This document shows positions 5,969 through 42,769 of a stretch of 60,380 nucleotides of DNA, one piece after another. The number at the start of each line of letters is the position of its first letter. The first letter of the stretch is position 1. Position numbers and translations under genes: made by a program. This stretch comes from a virus. Where the stretch lies: the IMG/VR virus record IMGVR_UViG_3300003322_000851, positions 1 through 60,380 of that record. The stretch is one strand, 5' to 3'. Below the pieces are notes generated by a model. The model had not been told where the DNA came from, made no database searches, and saw only the letters and a program-made list of their open reading frames with translations.

Positions 5969-6646
5969 ATGGCCGATATGTATGACAGGTTCAAGCGAAT
6001 CCCCATGCCAGGGGAACGGCGTGGTGCTGTCTATCGGGCGCCGTATGATCTTCCTGTAGAAAGTAAACCTGTAAATTACTCTACAGGTGAAGTAAAAACC
6101 TATGGAATTGGCGAAGATAAAGCGCCAGCGATGGCTAAGCCTCTTGCGGCGCAAACACAGGCGCCACTCCAAGCGCCGCAAAAAAGAGCTCCAGCATTAG
6201 GAAATGGTTTGCGCCAAGGAATTACCCAAGATCAAATCATTAATTACTTGCTTCCAAAGTTTCGTCGTTACGAATCATCGAATGACCCTACGGTTAAAAC
6301 AACAGCGGATAGTTCTGATGCGTCTGGGTTATACCAATATTTAAGCTCCACATGGAATAACTATAAGGGATATAAGGAAGCAAGACTTGCTCCTCCTGAA
6401 ATCCAGGAGGAACGGATGCGAGCCGATACATTGGCACGATTAAATAAGTATAATAATGATGTTTTTAGAACGGTTGCAGAGCATTATTATCCAAAGTTTG
6501 CTAAGAACCCAGCCGATTGGGACAAGCCGATTTTGGATAATAATGGGAACCCCTATAAATTCCCAAGGCCTACCGTAAGGGAGTACCTCTACAATGTATT
6601 ACCGAAACAATACGTCGACGCCTATCTCCGACAACGGGGACTCTGA
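5969..6646 (+). CDS. Virion-associated lytic transglycosylase-like protein
   Basis: The C-terminal two thirds resemble a lysozyme-like transglycosylase: RRYESSNDP carries a candidate catalytic Glu (about residue 103), followed by ASGLYQYLSSTWNNYKGY, the usual 'GLxQfxxxTW' block. Such domains open the peptidoglycan locally when the phage ejects its DNA, so this is probably a virion enzyme rather than the lysis enzyme (which is at 13801). The first 70 residues are Pro/Ala-rich and probably a linker. The gene starts one base after the upstream stop, and the next gene overlaps its last 53 bases. The family call is by motif only. Confidence 0.6.
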   Translation: MADMYDRFKRIPMPGERRGAVYRAPYDLPVESKPVNYSTGEVKTYGIGEDKAPAMAKPLAAQTQAPLQAPQKRAPALGNGLRQGITQDQIINYLLPKFRRYESSNDPTVKTTADSSDASGLYQYLSSTWNNYKGYKEARLAPPEIQEERMRADTLARLNKYNNDVFRTVAEHYYPKFAKNPADWDKPILDNNGNPYKFPRPTVREYLYNVLPKQYVDAYLRQRGL

Positions 6647-34330: not shown

Positions 34331-35069
34331 TTTTCATGCTCTCCAGAATGGAAATTGCGTTCGCGGTTTTGCTTTGTGTGTTTTGGAATGGCGATCCGCG
34401 AGCACGAGGTTCTTGCTGTTTGATTGGATCGTTCCAGCGTTCCTGGTTCAGGTAGGTTTCTGGGTTGGGAATAAACCCATCAAGCCAACGGGCGTCGAAA
34501 GCAGATTTTTGTTTTACATCGGCGATGATTTTGTCAGCGTGATCGTCAAGTTTTCGACGCTTCCATTTTTCCAGGCACGGTTTCTTACCCGTTTTGTTCG
34601 GGTAGGCTTCCCAGAATTCTTCAAAATAAGATTTTTTGGAAATAGATTTATCTATTTCTTTTTTATTACTCTGTTCTGTTCTGTTCTGTTCTAGGCCGTT
34701 ACAGTAACGTTCCTGTAACGTTTCAGAAACGTTTCTTTTCGTTATGTTATTGTTTTTATTCCTGAATTTCTGAACTCGTTTTGTGCTGGAGTCACTTTTA
34801 TATTGGCATTTATCCCACTTCACGATGAAGTATTCACCCTGGGTATTTTTTGCAATAAGTTTTCGATGTAACAATTCCTGTAACGTTTCAGAAACGTTTC
34901 GTCTGAGTGCCCAATTAATGTCGGCATCGGTAAGTTTGGTATTGCCGTGATCTTCTTCTTTGCAGGCAACACACAATAGCTCTACCCAGGTGCGAAATTG
35001 CGCGTCCGTTAACGTACCCACCTTTGGGTCGGATGGCATGTCTTTGTACATGCGGAACCAATCCATCAT
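34230..35069 (-). CDS. Replication initiator, lambda-O-like
   Basis: A 279-residue protein with an N-terminal winged-helix-like domain (MDWFRMYKDMPSDPKVGTLT; ADINWALRRNVSETLQELL), a charged linker, and a C-terminal part with YFEEFWEAYPNKTGKKPCLE and FIPNPETYLNQERW found in phage O-type replication proteins. It should bind the phage origin and recruit the host helicase. Repeated DNA segments lie inside the gene (34698-34735 and 34875-34900), as lambda ori does in gene O. The start has GAGGAG upstream. Confidence 0.75.
   Translation of the reverse strand: MMDWFRMYKDMPSDPKVGTLTDAQFRTWVELLCVACKEEDHGNTKLTDADINWALRRNVSETLQELLHRKLIAKNTQGEYFIVKWDKCQYKSDSSTKRVQKFRNKNNNITKRNVSETLQERYCNGLEQNRTEQSNKKEIDKSISKKSYFEEFWEAYPNKTGKKPCLEKWKRRKLDDHADKIIADVKQKSAFDARWLDGFIPNPETYLNQERWNDPIKQQEPRARGSPFQNTQSKTANAISILESMKSANKTTTYSTVVPRLDSERIAETHLLETGETSS
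34671..34690 (+). repeat. Four tandem CTGTT units
   Basis: Four exact CTGTT copies in the initiator gene (encoding an EQNRTEQ-type stretch), 8 bases from the first iteron-like palindrome. Short tandem repeats like these vary in length easily. Confidence 0.6.
34698..34735 (+). repeat. Iteron-like repeat, copy 1
   Basis: TTCCTGTAACGTTTCAGAAA followed by CGTTTC at 34710-34735, recurring exactly at 34875-34900. It contains AACGTTTC-A-GAAACGTT, a 17-base palindrome. Just upstream is a second palindrome, GTTAC-A-GTAAC (34698-34708). Probably initiator-binding sites of an internal replication origin. Confidence 0.55.
34875..34900 (+). repeat. Iteron-like repeat, copy 2
   Basis: Exact second copy of the 26-base repeat at 34710-34735, 165 bases away, in the same reading frame of the initiator gene. 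Because the copies encode the same peptide RNVSETLQE, selection at the protein level is possible too, but identity at every codon position favours DNA function. Confidence 0.5.
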
Positions 35070-35112
35070 TGGCTCCTCAAGTCAGAAGAAATTGATTGAA
35101 TGCGTGCCACGG

Positions 35113-35370
35113 CTATCCTCTAGCAAAAGAGTCCGCGACCATTGAAAATGGGGTGGCGGACGACGCGAAGTTGAGACACCGGAGCGAAAGACGAAACACC
35201 GGCGAGCCGTTAGGCTCCAACGCGCCGCCCGCCATTGACTGGCTAGGCGAGTGCCCACAATGAGATTTCAGGCGTAAAAAAAGCGCCTTAATCAGATGAT
35301 GGACGCTTGCGCGTCTTTCTGTTTGGATCGAGGTCTCAATCTCGACTACCGATTTTGCGGTAGTGTTCAT
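35113..35370 (-). ncRNA. Ash/Icd-like locus: probable structured RNA with overlapping frame
   Basis: The open frame (85 codons; FLRLKSHCGH and MAGGALEPNGSPVF) resembles the Ash/Icd-type reading frames that overlap C4-like antisense RNAs in P1/P4-type and many prophages. A good -10 (TATAAT) ends right at the ATG, so the transcript should begin inside the frame at about 35364, and the ATG would not be transcribed. The expected RNA folds strongly: CTACCG/CGGTAG at its 5' end, GACGC-GCAA-GCGTC (a GNRA loop), AGGCG/CGCCT, and GAGCC-TAAC-GGCTC. I favour a regulatory RNA, perhaps for immunity, over a protein. Confidence 0.55.
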
Positions 35371-35399
35371 ATTATATACACTTTAATTATGATATGCAA
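35371..35399 (-). promoter_or_regulatory. Promoter of the Ash-like locus
   Basis: On the minus strand TATAAT (35376-35371) with TTGCAT (35399-35394) 17 bases upstream. The -10 directly abuts the ATG at 35370-35368, pointing to a transcript that begins within the reading frame. Confidence 0.5.
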
Positions 35400-35471: not shown

Positions 35472-35508
35472 AAAAAAAGAGAATCTCAAGTATTTCAAGA
35501 TTCTCTTT
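35472..35508 (-). terminator. Rho-independent terminator after 35516
   Basis: Perfect 11-base stem AAAGAGAATCT/AGATTCTCTTT (arms 35508-35498 and 35486-35476 on the minus strand) followed by a run of seven T. It lies 8 bases after the gene at 35516-35833, so that gene is separated from the Ash-like locus. Confidence 0.85.
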
Positions 35509-35515
35509 AGGAGGA

Positions 35516-35833
35516 TTAGGTTAGCCGTGTAACGACAACACCAGGACAATGATATTCTGGGTTATTGGGGAATAAATTCTTTGCTTCTTCTTCGCTTGTG
35601 ATGGTGAGAGAGGAAAAAGTACGCCCTGTTTTTTTTCTTGCGTTGTTGATGATGCCACTAAACGATCTGGACGTTTTCCCTGGAACAAAAAAAGAATCGT
35701 TTATTTCAAGTATTTTGAAAGGATAGGTGTTTTTTCGCCCAGAATTCATTTTATTACGATGTTTGTGTGGCAATTTAAGGTTATGCAGGATGGGGTAATT
35801 CTCATCCTTGTTTACATTTTCAGTATTGTTCAT
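35516..35833 (-). CDS. Hypothetical small DNA-binding-type protein, 105 aa
   Basis: After a polar N-terminus come NDSFFVPGKTSRSFSGIINN and ARKKTGRTFSSLTI, a short 'FFVPG...A-x-x-x-GrkF' domain common in small phage proteins; the frame at 29804-30022 has the same layout. It forms a unit of its own, with a TTGACA promoter upstream and a strong terminator downstream, as for a regulator or a gene expressed in the lysogen. Function not known. Confidence 0.6.
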   Translation of the reverse strand: MNNTENVNKDENYPILHNLKLPHKHRNKMNSGRKNTYPFKILEINDSFFVPGKTSRSFSGIINNARKKTGRTFSSLTITSEEEAKNLFPNNPEYHCPGVVVTRLT

Positions 35834-36579: not shown

Positions 36580-36858
36580 TCACCTGCAAGAGACAGAAAG
36601 CACTTTGCCATCGGTGAAGTTGATATGGTTTCCGCCAGTGTAGTAGTAGGACTCAAGTACGCCAATGGCGGTTTGAGTCTCACTCATTTTTTTAACGGGC
36701 TGACCTAAAATTTCAGTGACTTGGTTATAGGTCATCCCTGCGTGCACATCGAGGCAACTCCCGCCGTTTCTTGGGAGAAATGGAATAGGGGTGGAAGCGC
36801 AGGCTGTTAATCCGGCGACGTAAACAGTTAAAGCAAGAGTTTTGATGGGTGTGTTCAT
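36580..36858 (-). CDS. Early lipoprotein, OmlA/BamE-like fold
   Basis: Signal peptide with lipobox LTAC and Cys20, then CLDVHAGMTYNQVTEILGQP, the opening of the OmlA/SmpA (BamE-like) domain, closing with YYYTGGNHINFTDGKVLSV. About the size of other small envelope lipoproteins. As the second gene of the early operon it may protect the cell against superinfection or change the envelope; such roles are known for other early phage lipoproteins but not shown for this one. Confidence 0.65.
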   Translation of the reverse strand: MNTPIKTLALTVYVAGLTACASTPIPFLPRNGGSCLDVHAGMTYNQVTEILGQPVKKMSETQTAIGVLESYYYTGGNHINFTDGKVLSVSCR

Positions 36859-37149: not shown

Positions 37150-37938
37150 TTATGCGAGAGACAATCGCGGAACATCGGCTTTTAGTGATATGCAATGATC
37201 CGGTGAGCAAAGTTGGATCGTTTTGTGTGCGTAATGAATGTAGATCGCACCGCTTCTTTTGAAGATGCAATCGTGCGATGTGTAGTTGGAAAGCACAGTG
37301 CCGATCACTTCTTTCTGTAGTGAAGTCGGGGTCTCTGGTGCGATAAACTCCAATGCGTTACAAGTGAGCAACATTGAGCCGGTTTTTTCGTCATTCGAAT
37401 GAAAAAAAATGGAGATTTGAGAATCGTTGGTACTCACGCTCACCTCGCCAAAATGACAGTTTTTGCCCTTTTCAATGGCCGAAATGACCTCATCAGCGCT
37501 CACGAGAGGGCCATGGTTTAAAGTTTTGAAGGGGATTGTCGCCAGAAATCGATCCTCACGCGGCAGTGTGACGACTTGACGTTGAGAGCGGTTGCACTTT
37601 GTGGCAATTCCAGTGCTTGCCTCCAGAATCAATACCATATTGCCCTTGGGCACCAGGTCACACTCTAAACAAAATTCATTTATCAACGCATGAAGCGTTC
37701 GCACTAATGTGCCGGCGGGATCACGAATAAATCGAACGTGGAACCTATCCTCAACAATCTTGAGTATTTGCACCCCGTTCTTTGAAACCGTAACGCAATC
37801 CTCTTTTTTTTTCAGCACGTAACAGTAGCACTCCAACTCACCGATCCAATTTTGGTCTTTGATGTAACGAGACATGACGTTTTCTGCTTTCTCAGCAAGC
37901 CACGGTTTATTTCTATGTCTTTGTCGTGCGTATATCAT
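37150..37938 (-). CDS. Unrecognised protein upstream of the early promoter, 262 aa
   Basis: A 262-residue beta-rich, Cys-containing protein (GELECYCYVLKKKEDCVTVS; then LRTLHALINEFCLECDLVPK and HDCIFKRSGAIYIHYAHK). No helix-turn-helix, protease or transmembrane segment is obvious. Its stop is 37 bases upstream of the early promoter with operator, the place where a regulator is often found, but the sequence gives no direct evidence for DNA binding. Codon use is not unusual. A novel repressor or an early host-takeover protein are both open. Confidence 0.55.
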   Translation of the reverse strand: MIYARQRHRNKPWLAEKAENVMSRYIKDQNWIGELECYCYVLKKKEDCVTVSKNGVQILKIVEDRFHVRFIRDPAGTLVRTLHALINEFCLECDLVPKGNMVLILEASTGIATKCNRSQRQVVTLPREDRFLATIPFKTLNHGPLVSADEVISAIEKGKNCHFGEVSVSTNDSQISIFFHSNDEKTGSMLLTCNALEFIAPETPTSLQKEVIGTVLSNYTSHDCIFKRSGAIYIHYAHKTIQLCSPDHCISLKADVPRLSLA

Positions 37939-39804: not shown

Positions 39805-40395
39805 ATGGATGATGAAAAAGTTGCAAAGCAATTAGCTGTGCTTGAGAAGGTGAAGGACATTGGATATTTCAAATCCTTTAGTCCTTACCATTACTCAACC
39901 TATTCAAATAGGTTAAAGAAGCCTTTTGAATTTCTTGAAGAGGTTGGGATTGAGAAGGTCACAGAGTTGGTGCAGCATGGGTTTTGCATAACGAAGATAT
40001 GCCAATTACTAGGTATATCGGTATTTGTATTCAGACGCTGGATGCAAAGCGATCCTTACTATGAATCTGAGATTCAATCAGCTGAGGAGTTTAGCGCTGA
40101 CCATCTTGTTTACAAAGCGGAGAAAGCTATCAAGAGTGCGGATAGTGAGAGCCGATTTGACATTACCAAGAAAGTCGAATTAGCTAAGCACTATCGTTGG
40201 GCGGCCTCAAAATTAAACAAAAAGAAGTATGGTAGACAGGTTGAGGAAAAGCAAATCAACAATGGCCAGCAAGTGATCTACAACATTGATCTTGGTGGCA
40301 AGAAGACCACGGATACTACGGTTATTGATGTTGAACCTATTTCTGTAAAAAAGAATAAAGATAACGTATTCGGCATAAGTGAAAATGTCGGATAA
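39805..40395 (+). CDS. terS: Terminase small subunit
   Basis: A 196-residue protein with a helix-turn-helix (VTELVQHGFCITKICQLLGI, then FRRWMQSDP) and the C-terminal KVELAKHYRWAASKLNKKKY block usual for small terminases of the Sf6/P22 type. It should recognise phage DNA and start headful packaging with TerL. Its stop overlaps the start of the large subunit. The pac site is expected in or near this gene but cannot be seen. Confidence 0.85.
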   Translation: MDDEKVAKQLAVLEKVKDIGYFKSFSPYHYSTYSNRLKKPFEFLEEVGIEKVTELVQHGFCITKICQLLGISVFVFRRWMQSDPYYESEIQSAEEFSADHLVYKAEKAIKSADSESRFDITKKVELAKHYRWAASKLNKKKYGRQVEEKQINNGQQVIYNIDLGGKKTTDTTVIDVEPISVKKNKDNVFGISENVG

Positions 40396-42769
40396 TATAA
40401 AAACCATCAGCTACATTGCTGAACCTACGGCGCAAGCATTCCATCAAGACGATAGATTCTTTCGTGTTCTAAAAGGGCCGGTTGGCTGTCTTCCAGCGGA
40501 TTCAGAGTTTCTCACTCCGTCAGGATGGAAGAGAATGGACTCCTACCAGGAAGGAGTTGATCTTTGTGCTCAATGGAACCCAGTAACCAATACCATCGAG
40601 TTTGTTCCACCTTCCGCTTATATTGTAGAGCCATGTGAGGAATTTATCCGCTTTTCCTCTGGTTCATTAGTAATGGAATTATCAGAGGAGCACCGTGTTC
40701 CGCACTGGGACTGGAAAGGTGACTTTGTTGTAAAAACGGCTAAAGAAATAGAGCATAGCCCTTCAAGAAGGAAAATCCCAACCACTTTTTGTGGACCGGA
40801 TAGCGATAGTTTAGGGATGTCCGAAGATTTGATCCGTTTTGCTGTAATGATGCACGCAGATGGGCATTATCTTGCTTCATGCAAGACGGCTGTGGTCTCT
40901 TTGAGAAAGCAACGAAAGAAAGATAGGTTGCGTGAATTATTGAAGAGACTCGATATTCGTTGGACTGAAAATATTCACAAAGCACGTCCAATGGAAACTA
41001 TTTTTTCTTTTGATCCCCCCTATAGAGGAAAACGTTTTACTGGAAAATGGTGGAGTGCTTCTTATAAAGAATTAAGAATCATATTGGATGAACTAAAATA
41101 TTGGGATGGATTGGCAGGCATTGATGGCTGCCATGAGGAAACTCGATATTATTCATCACACAAAGAAGACGCTGAGTTTATTCAATATGCCTCTCATGCA
41201 GTTGGACGACGCGCCACTATAAGAATTGATGATACTCAAGATGAGAGATGGGCTCCATGCTACATAGTACAGCTCTTCAAACAAGATGGGCCGAAGAATG
41301 TAGCCTCTATCCGAGAGCATACACTTATTTCTCGTATCCCATCCCAAGATGGGGGGAAGTATTGTTTTACAGTTCCTAGTGGCTTTTTCATAGCTCGCTG
41401 TGAAGGGTCTATTTTTGTTACGGGAAATTGCGGTAAATCCTCTGCATGTGTCATGGACATCATGTATCGTGGATTTGTTCATCCGCCTGGGCCTGATGGT
41501 GTGCGGCGTCCTAGGTGGGTAATTATCCGAGCTACTTATGGTGAGCTAAAAGCCACTACGATTCCTACATGGAATATGTGGGTACCTTCTTCAATATGCA
41601 CGGTTGTATACGATTCGCCTATTCGAGCGCGTGTTCAGCAAAAGTTAGGGGATGGCACTGAACTGGATATGGAGGTTCTTTTTTTGGCATTGGACAGAGA
41701 AGAAGATGCCGAGAAACTCAAATCCTTCGAAGTGACTGGCGCATGGCTGAATGAAGCCAGTGAATTAACATGGACAGTGTTTCAATATCTTTCTGGGCGT
41801 GTAGGTCGGTGGAACCCAGATAAAGATGATGTAAAGCGTTGGCGTGGGATTATTGCGGATACTAACCCGCCACGAACGACTCACTGGTTGTATAACCTCT
41901 TTGAAGAAAAAGAGGTGCCGCCTGAGATTAAAATGTACACATACCCTCCTGCAGTGTACTTTGACCACGCTACGAAGAAATGGGAAGTTAATCCTGATGC
42001 TGAAAACCTTCGTTGGTTAAAACCATCTGGGGTTGAGTATTATAGACAACAATTAGTCTCTGGGTCTGATGACTATATCCGCGTGATGCTTGCGGGCGAA
42101 TACGGAATGACCCGTATTGGGAAACCTGTATTTCCTCAATATGCCGAAAAGGACCATGTAGCGAAAGAGGTTATCCGTCCTGACCCTGGTATGCCATTAT
42201 TGATAGGGTTCGACTTTGGGCTTAATCCTGCAGCAGTATTTGCGCAAATGACACAGCGTGGGGGTTTAAGGATATTGGATGTTTTAATACCTGCAGATGA
42301 GAGCTTGGAAGATTTTGTAGACGATTATGTTTTACCACTTATCCAGAAAAAATATCCTCGTTACAAAATATACTGTGTTGGCGATCCCGCAGCACGTGGA
42401 CGTTCAGGGCTGGATAAACGAACTCCTTTTGATGTGTTGATGTCTCGAAACATACGGTGTATCCCTGCGCCAACCAATAGCTTTGTCCCACGCAAAGAGG
42501 CTGTAGATTTCTTTCTGAATAAGATTGATGGATTAAAAATTGACCCATCATTAACCTATCTTAGAGAAGCATTTGGCGGAGGGTATGTATACGGAATTAT
42601 TCGTGGAGATACTTCTCGTCATAAAGAGCGCCCTGAAAAAAACCACTATTCTCATGGCATGGATGCCGTACAATATGTTGCTTTACACGTGAGAAGCGGT
42701 AGTGGAGCTATTAAGCGCTCATCGAGAGAAAACATAATGGATAAAGCCAAAAAGTTTCTTTGGGCATAA
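40385..42769 (+). CDS. terL: Terminase large subunit, interrupted by an intein
   Basis: The precursor of about 794 residues is DNA-packaging ATPase and nuclease. Without the intein (40487-41428) it is about 480 residues, normal for TerL. The Walker A loop is split as GPVG-[intein]-CGKSS; Walker B/catalytic Glu lies in TGAWLNEASE; the nuclease acids lie in IGFDFGLNP, VGDPAARG and HGMDAVQYVA. ATG 40385 overlaps the terS stop; GTG 40379 is possible. The mature motor is inactive until the intein is removed, because the ATP-binding loop is cut by it. Confidence 0.95.
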   Translation: MSDNIKTISYIAEPTAQAFHQDDRFFRVLKGPVGCLPADSEFLTPSGWKRMDSYQEGVDLCAQWNPVTNTIEFVPPSAYIVEPCEEFIRFSSGSLVMELSEEHRVPHWDWKGDFVVKTAKEIEHSPSRRKIPTTFCGPDSDSLGMSEDLIRFAVMMHADGHYLASCKTAVVSLRKQRKKDRLRELLKRLDIRWTENIHKARPMETIFSFDPPYRGKRFTGKWWSASYKELRIILDELKYWDGLAGIDGCHEETRYYSSHKEDAEFIQYASHAVGRRATIRIDDTQDERWAPCYIVQLFKQDGPKNVASIREHTLISRIPSQDGGKYCFTVPSGFFIARCEGSIFVTGNCGKSSACVMDIMYRGFVHPPGPDGVRRPRWVIIRATYGELKATTIPTWNMWVPSSICTVVYDSPIRARVQQKLGDGTELDMEVLFLALDREEDAEKLKSFEVTGAWLNEASELTWTVFQYLSGRVGRWNPDKDDVKRWRGIIADTNPPRTTHWLYNLFEEKEVPPEIKMYTYPPAVYFDHATKKWEVNPDAENLRWLKPSGVEYYRQQLVSGSDDYIRVMLAGEYGMTRIGKPVFPQYAEKDHVAKEVIRPDPGMPLLIGFDFGLNPAAVFAQMTQRGGLRILDVLIPADESLEDFVDDYVLPLIQKKYPRYKIYCVGDPAARGRSGLDKRTPFDVLMSRNIRCIPAPTNSFVPRKEAVDFFLNKIDGLKIDPSLTYLREAFGGGYVYGIIRGDTSRHKERPEKNHYSHGMDAVQYVALHVRSGSGAIKRSSRENIMDKAKKFLWA
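40487..41428 (+). mobile_element. Intein in the terL ATP-binding loop, 314 aa
   Basis: The insert starts with Cys (CLPADSEFLTPSGWKRM), the usual intein N-block, has a B-block-like ELSEEHRVPHW with the His, and ends FVTGN before Cys+1 of the extein (CGKSS), so Cys1, Asn-terminal and Cys+1 are in place. The residue before the last Asn is Gly where His is more common. The middle has LIRFAVMMHADGHYL and WDGLAGIDGC, two LAGLIDADG-like motifs, so it probably carries a homing endonuclease domain, perhaps degenerate. The host gene is read through without frame change. Confidence 0.93.

Follow-up and report, generated by a model that had tools for sequence, protein, structure and literature searches.

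The stretch of viral DNA analyzed here (the window, 60,380 nucleotides) carries on its minus strand, at positions 35113 to 35399, an 85-codon open reading frame directly behind a promoter. This locus raises the question of whether it encodes a small protein or, as a preliminary description had proposed, a structured regulatory RNA, and which genes such an RNA would control.

The C4 RNA and its leader

Judged from its sequence, this is a C4-type locus that adds a member to the C4/CI RNA family; its neighboring gene is unusual, and the second target site is absent. The match to the C4 antisense RNA, covering all of positions 1 to 87 of the Rfam model, was the single match above a cut-off in the whole 60-kb record, and its E value of 1.5e-9 was computed over the whole window (Table 1). 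A model of our own gave this RNA 68.1 bits, with the window itself among its 57 training sequences. The structure at 35113 to 35399 exceeds chance, as indicated by the C4 E value, and the RNA from 35364 to 35113 folded at -94.7 kcal/mol, compared with an average of -77.4 for shuffled sequences (z, -3.3), beating 200 of 200 shuffles. The comparison with the C4 family that the preliminary description had recommended gave a score well above the Rfam cut-off (61.8 versus 45 bits), and the four or more stable hairpins that it had predicted, one of them GNRA capped, were recovered as hairpins 1 and 2, the GCAA hairpin, and the three-helix C4 core.

Table 1. Features of the C4-type locus and its surroundings, with the evidence for each
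Feature	Position	Strand	Evidence
Intrinsic terminator, 14-bp stem and U-run	35476..35508	-	terminator scan
Promoter: -35 TTGCAT (35399-35394), 17-nt spacer, -10 TATAAT (35376-35371)	35371..35399	-	sequence
c4-a1b1 target element (RF03163)	35325..35377	-	weak, 23.8 bits, permissive Rfam search
isrK/seqA-type leader RNA (RF01394)	35276..35364	-	47.3 bits, E 5e-9, permissive Rfam search
Leader hairpin 1	35345..35364	-	fold
Leader hairpin 2, a1 in loop	35329..35344	-	fold
a1 target site TTGAGAC, loop of hairpin 2	35333..35339	-	complementary to C4 a'
GNRA (GCAA)-capped hairpin GACGC-GCAA-GCGTC	35302..35315	-	sequence and fold
Candidate intrinsic terminator AGCGTC..GGCGCT and T-run, leader end	35276..35307	-	isrK model alignment
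C4 antisense RNA (RF01695), full-length three-helix structure	35149..35239	-	61.8 bits, cut-off 45, E 1.5e-9
a' specificity sequence of C4, GTCTCAA	35171..35177	-	co-varies with a1 and a2 in 106 loci
Candidate b2 GGTCGCGGAC	35131..35140	-	pairs 9/10 with C4 3' arm GTCCGCCACC
Ash/Icd-like open frame, 85 codons, over leader and C4	35113..35370	-	open reading frame
Possible 14-codon GTG leader frame, SD-like AGAGGA at 35121-35116	35066..35110	-	sequence reading only
Replication initiation gene, 279 aa, first recognizable gene after C4	34230..35069	-	phrog_9474 E 5.6e-21; phrog_270 E 2e-18

Immediately upstream of C4, on the same strand and in the order of the family, we found matches to the isrK/seqA-type leader and the c4-a1b1 target element. 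Both fell short of their curated cut-offs (50 bits for isrK and 46.7 bits for c4-a1b1). All three models also matched the P4 immunity region, our control, in this order (C4, 74.9 bits; isrK, 60.8 bits; c4-a1b1, 44.1 bits), the last of them also below the cut-off. The features of an isrK/seqA leader were all present in the window, namely the promoter, hairpin 1 with its constant GCAAAATC loop, and the a1 hairpin. The candidate terminator at the end of the leader folded at -8.8 kcal/mol and is imperfect, as its 5' arm is used by the competing GCAA hairpin.

We scanned IMG/VR with exact patterns for the C4 core and obtained some 180 loci. Because the patterns fix the P2 and P3 sequences, this sample is biased toward those variants, and it includes some false positives. 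For the pairing analysis we used 106 nonredundant C4 loci with a P1 stem, representing 50 distinct a' octamers. The complement of the a' heptamer was found in the locus's own leader (a1) in 85% of cases, compared with 8% when leaders were swapped, and just downstream (a2) in 79% compared with 2.5%. Two-sided changes occurred among relatives in 10 of the 22 C4 pairs, in the outer stem. For leader hairpin 1, 30 distinct stems surrounded a constant CAAAAT loop with 208 of 210 positions paired; these stems had been chosen to have 6 or more of 7 pairs, and a control that slid one arm gave 71, 46, and 75. Covariation across relatives, which the preliminary description had named as a check, was therefore strong in the C4 pairs, in hairpin 1, and among a', a1, and a2. 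In the window itself, a' (35177-35171) paired perfectly with a1 (35339-35333) over 7 nt, and the extended pairing reached -15.8 kcal/mol, a value equaled by 33 of 1,000 shuffles. Copies of TTGAGAC elsewhere in the window occurred in the number expected by chance.

The TATAAT directly abuts the ATG of the 85-codon frame (35370-35368), just as had been described. A generic promoter scan did not list the TTGCAT-17-TATAAT site; relative to the conserved GCAAAATC loop, the site coincided in position with the leader promoters in about 50 further C4 loci. Since the isrK match begins at 35364, transcription is expected to start near that position, 4 to 6 nt inside the frame and downstream of its ATG. 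The earlier proposals that the message would begin within the frame, and that the locus lies between the replication genes and the promoter, thus agree with the isrK match, the aligned promoters, and the gene order, with the replication initiator downstream of C4 and the promoter upstream. The intrinsic terminator further upstream probably ends the gene at 35516-35833 and would shield the locus from upstream transcription.

In the C4 family, processing by RNase P yields a short, stable RNA, which in P1 is about 77 nt long. In P1 and P7, C4 is cleaved by RNase P, a' provides target specificity, and b' partly covers ribosome binding sites (PMC5320573). Based on the C4/CI family and the position of the locus, we infer that the C4-type RNA of the window is probably an immunity switch.

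The 85-codon frame

Could the frame nevertheless be a genuine Ash/Icd-type gene, with the likeness to a regulatory RNA being secondary? The frame is open, and its register relative to C4 is that of a P4 frame, annotated "cI," for which Pfam Ash (PF10554) gave an E value of 4e-16. However, the 85-amino-acid frame had no Pfam, PHROGs, or NCBIfam match, and neither it nor the whole record matched PF10554, even at an E value of 10 for the frame. The register was open in 28 of 94 C4 loci, and the two alternative frames were open in 33 and 26; core lengths of C4 varied without keeping to multiples of three (49, 27, and 18 loci per length class). Moreover, the ATG precedes the predicted transcript start. 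We consider a real protein gene highly improbable. Because the frame has no family match, its register is not preferentially open, and its ATG lies upstream of the expected start, it is probably not a gene and not translated.

The description of this locus as an Ash/Icd-like frame over a C4-like RNA held for the register and for the overlap with C4 but not for a recognized protein; "Ash/Icd-like" describes a reading register imposed by the RNA. For "Ash/cI" frames over such RNAs in general, a protein annotation needs evidence. As a separate observation, the P4 "cI" frame (L311:2669-3085) overlaps a C4-family RNA, and part of the Ash family (PF10554) may represent translated C4 RNA.

Target sites and the downstream replication gene

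C4-type RNAs usually guard antirepressor genes, and P4 is the exception, in which replication is controlled. What is unusual in the window is that C4 directly precedes a predicted DNA-replication initiator gene, not an antirepressor gene. Across about 130 sampled loci, the gene after C4 was usually an antirepressor, and among 89 distinct genes immediately following other C4 RNAs, the families found were mainly those of antirepressors: ORF6N (23), Bro-N (18), pRha (15), AntA (4), P22_AR, and KilA-N. No recognized replication initiator followed C4 in these ~130 loci, as judged from the 25 most frequent families per library and, for a second set, by eye. Pattern scans of IMG/VR and of species genomes gave no direct relatives of the replication protein or of the 85-amino-acid frame, no DNA-level match to the window was found in the phage collection, and neither the pattern scans nor the IMG/VR loci contained a close relative with the same order of C4 and replication gene. 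Piscirickettsia plasmids and phages of Xanthomonas, Stenotrophomonas, and Pseudomonas yielded distant homologues of the replication protein or of the next gene, none of them accompanied by C4. Among 80 IMG/VR loci whose Sak4-like gene is related to that of the window, a single contig (L171) had C4. That contig contains two different C4 RNAs (1841-1929 and 6069-6159) with differing a' sequences, each preceding its own antirepressor-like gene.

The canonical a2 site is missing in the window, as the canonical interval downstream of C4 contained no 5-mer match. This site was present in 79 to 84% of the sampled C4 loci, and some genuine-looking loci also lacked a perfect copy; a2 is common in the sample, and the Rfam C4 model does not demand it. 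The Shine-Dalgarno sequence of the replication gene was attractive by eye as a substitute for a2, but 689 of 1,000 shuffles did as well. The candidate b2, by comparison, occupies the position that b2 has in relatives, with a duplex of -15.3 kcal/mol that 68 of 1,000 shuffles equaled, so that the energy alone is not significant.

The missing a2 invites the reading that the locus is a decaying remnant, a former C4-antirepressor cassette from which the antirepressor and a2 have been lost and which is by now largely or wholly nonfunctional. The record without antirepressor domains and the disturbed terminator fit such decay. In contrast, the locus retains an intact promoter, a1, a', and hairpin 1, together with the entire C4 fold, which scores 61.8 bits against the model of Rfam itself, and the pairing between a1 and a' is perfect over 7 nt, which makes a remnant quite improbable.

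We also considered translational control of the P1/Gifsy type, in which C4 would block ribosome entry at the replication gene, either by pairing directly with UUGAGGAGCC at its Shine-Dalgarno sequence or through b2 and the coupled 14-codon frame, whose TGA overlaps the ATG of the replication gene (ATGA). The C4 sequence GGUGUCUCAA pairs at 9 of 10 positions with UUGAGGAGCC, overlapping the Shine-Dalgarno sequence, at -10.7 kcal/mol, and this pairing ranks among the best 4 of 140 ORF starts. The b2 candidate is in place, and the ATGA overlap resembles that of orf45-anrP (PMC4825925). Nevertheless, the pairing is at the level of shuffled sequence and would be favored by any GAG-rich Shine-Dalgarno sequence, and the canonical a2 is missing. 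We regard this type of control as the main account of the locus to be unlikely.

We consider it likely that the window contains a P4-like locus for RNA immunity and leader control, through which a C4/CI-family antisense RNA would control the replication operon in a phage that encodes an integrase. In P4-type immunity, an RNA halts transcription of the replication genes and confers immunity to superinfection. The order read along the window is one promoter, an isrK/seqA-type leader with a1, a candidate terminator, C4, and the replication initiator gene. Read-through transcripts would be cut to release C4, its a' would pair with a1 of nascent leaders, and its 3' arm would perhaps also pair with b2. 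Such pairing may end transcription early, where the leader stops, keep the downstream RNA untranslated, or both, so that a resident prophage would keep replication genes off, both its own and any brought in by an infecting relative, as with the CI RNA in P4. Early termination as in P4 is the most likely mode of control, since the leader site alone is clearly kept, and translational control is possible.

We favor this P4-like explanation because the a'-a1 complementarity in the window is the same pairing that co-varies in the 106 loci and because P4, our control, has the identical order of isrK, C4, and replication gene. In its support are also the C4 above cut-off with isrK and a1b1 upstream, the aligned promoter and hairpin 1, the b2 candidate in place, the replication initiator directly downstream, and an integrase in a record with no match to a repressor or antirepressor domain. 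It is important to note that the explanation is weakened by the missing a2, the imperfect terminator, the isrK and c4-a1b1 scores under the Rfam cut-offs, and the scans' failure to turn up a close relative in which the genes are arranged this way.

Phage context and known systems

The record encodes an integrase, Sak4, RuvC-like proteins, a primase/helicase, thymidylate synthase, SSB, and packaging and tail genes, and the phage is probably temperate. HTH_3, Peptidase_S24, Phage_CI_repr, Bro-N, ANT, and pRha had no match anywhere in the record. The phage may still have a protein repressor beyond those family searches, as the record is perhaps incomplete (linear) and several ORFs near 36 to 38 kb are unassigned. 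That a full-size integrase-bearing phage would have a C4-family RNA as its sole immunity factor, acting through a1 alone without a2, a protein repressor, or an antirepressor, is possible but doubtful. Two minus-strand genes farther upstream than the leader promoter (35516-35833 and 37150-37938), in a region that might be expected to encode a repressor, had no informative family match. A small lipoprotein-like frame (MNTPIKTLALTVYVAGLTAC; 36580-36858, minus strand) upstream of the immunity region had a weak BamE match. In the large terminase frame (40379-42769, plus strand), the P-loop is apparently interrupted by an intein-like insert (GPVG|CLPADSEF...FVTGN|CGKSS); residues 30 to 355 matched the PhoH-like phrog_32482 and the remainder matched terminase.

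Among known systems, the Group 1 small RNAs of Acinetobacter baumannii share the C4 structure and are processed from longer transcripts (PMC5320573), but they are multicopy chromosomal RNAs without a known replication target. The Gifsy-1 isrK-orf45-anrP locus of Salmonella (STnc1160) resembles the window in its isrK leader, its partial terminator, its C4-like RNA (processed in Gifsy-1), and a small frame whose end overlaps the following gene as ATGA (orf45-anrP; PMC4825925). There, in contrast, the target is an antirepressor gene, and IsrK activates anrP in trans. The immI region of P1 and P7 (c4-icd-ant) shares the C4 fold, the a'/b' specificity scheme, and the a1 site in the leader, although P1 C4 silences expression of the icd/ant antirepressor and the record of the window has no antirepressor domain match.

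The closest precedent is P4. Its CI RNA pairs with seqA and seqC, which stops transcription of the P4 replication genes (PMC4825925), and IsrK is a structural homologue of its SeqA (Hershko-Shalev et al., PMC4825925). With the CI RNA and seqA-seqB-seqC of P4, the window shares the order of promoter, isrK/seqA leader, C4-family RNA, and replication operon, as well as AGTCAATGG at the 5' end of the RNA and the register of the frame over it. The two differ in that P4 is an 11.6-kb satellite, whereas the window is a record of 60 kb that includes a terminase gene of its own; P4 has kept seqC (a2) right after CI, and the window has no a2. Further, several small genes lie between CI and alpha in P4, where the operon after C4 ends with the alpha primase, while a different initiator lies directly downstream in the window. 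If the window belongs to a second, unrelated phage with a P4-like arrangement and no recognizable repressor, this would suggest that replication-directed RNA immunity is not peculiar to P4 satellites.
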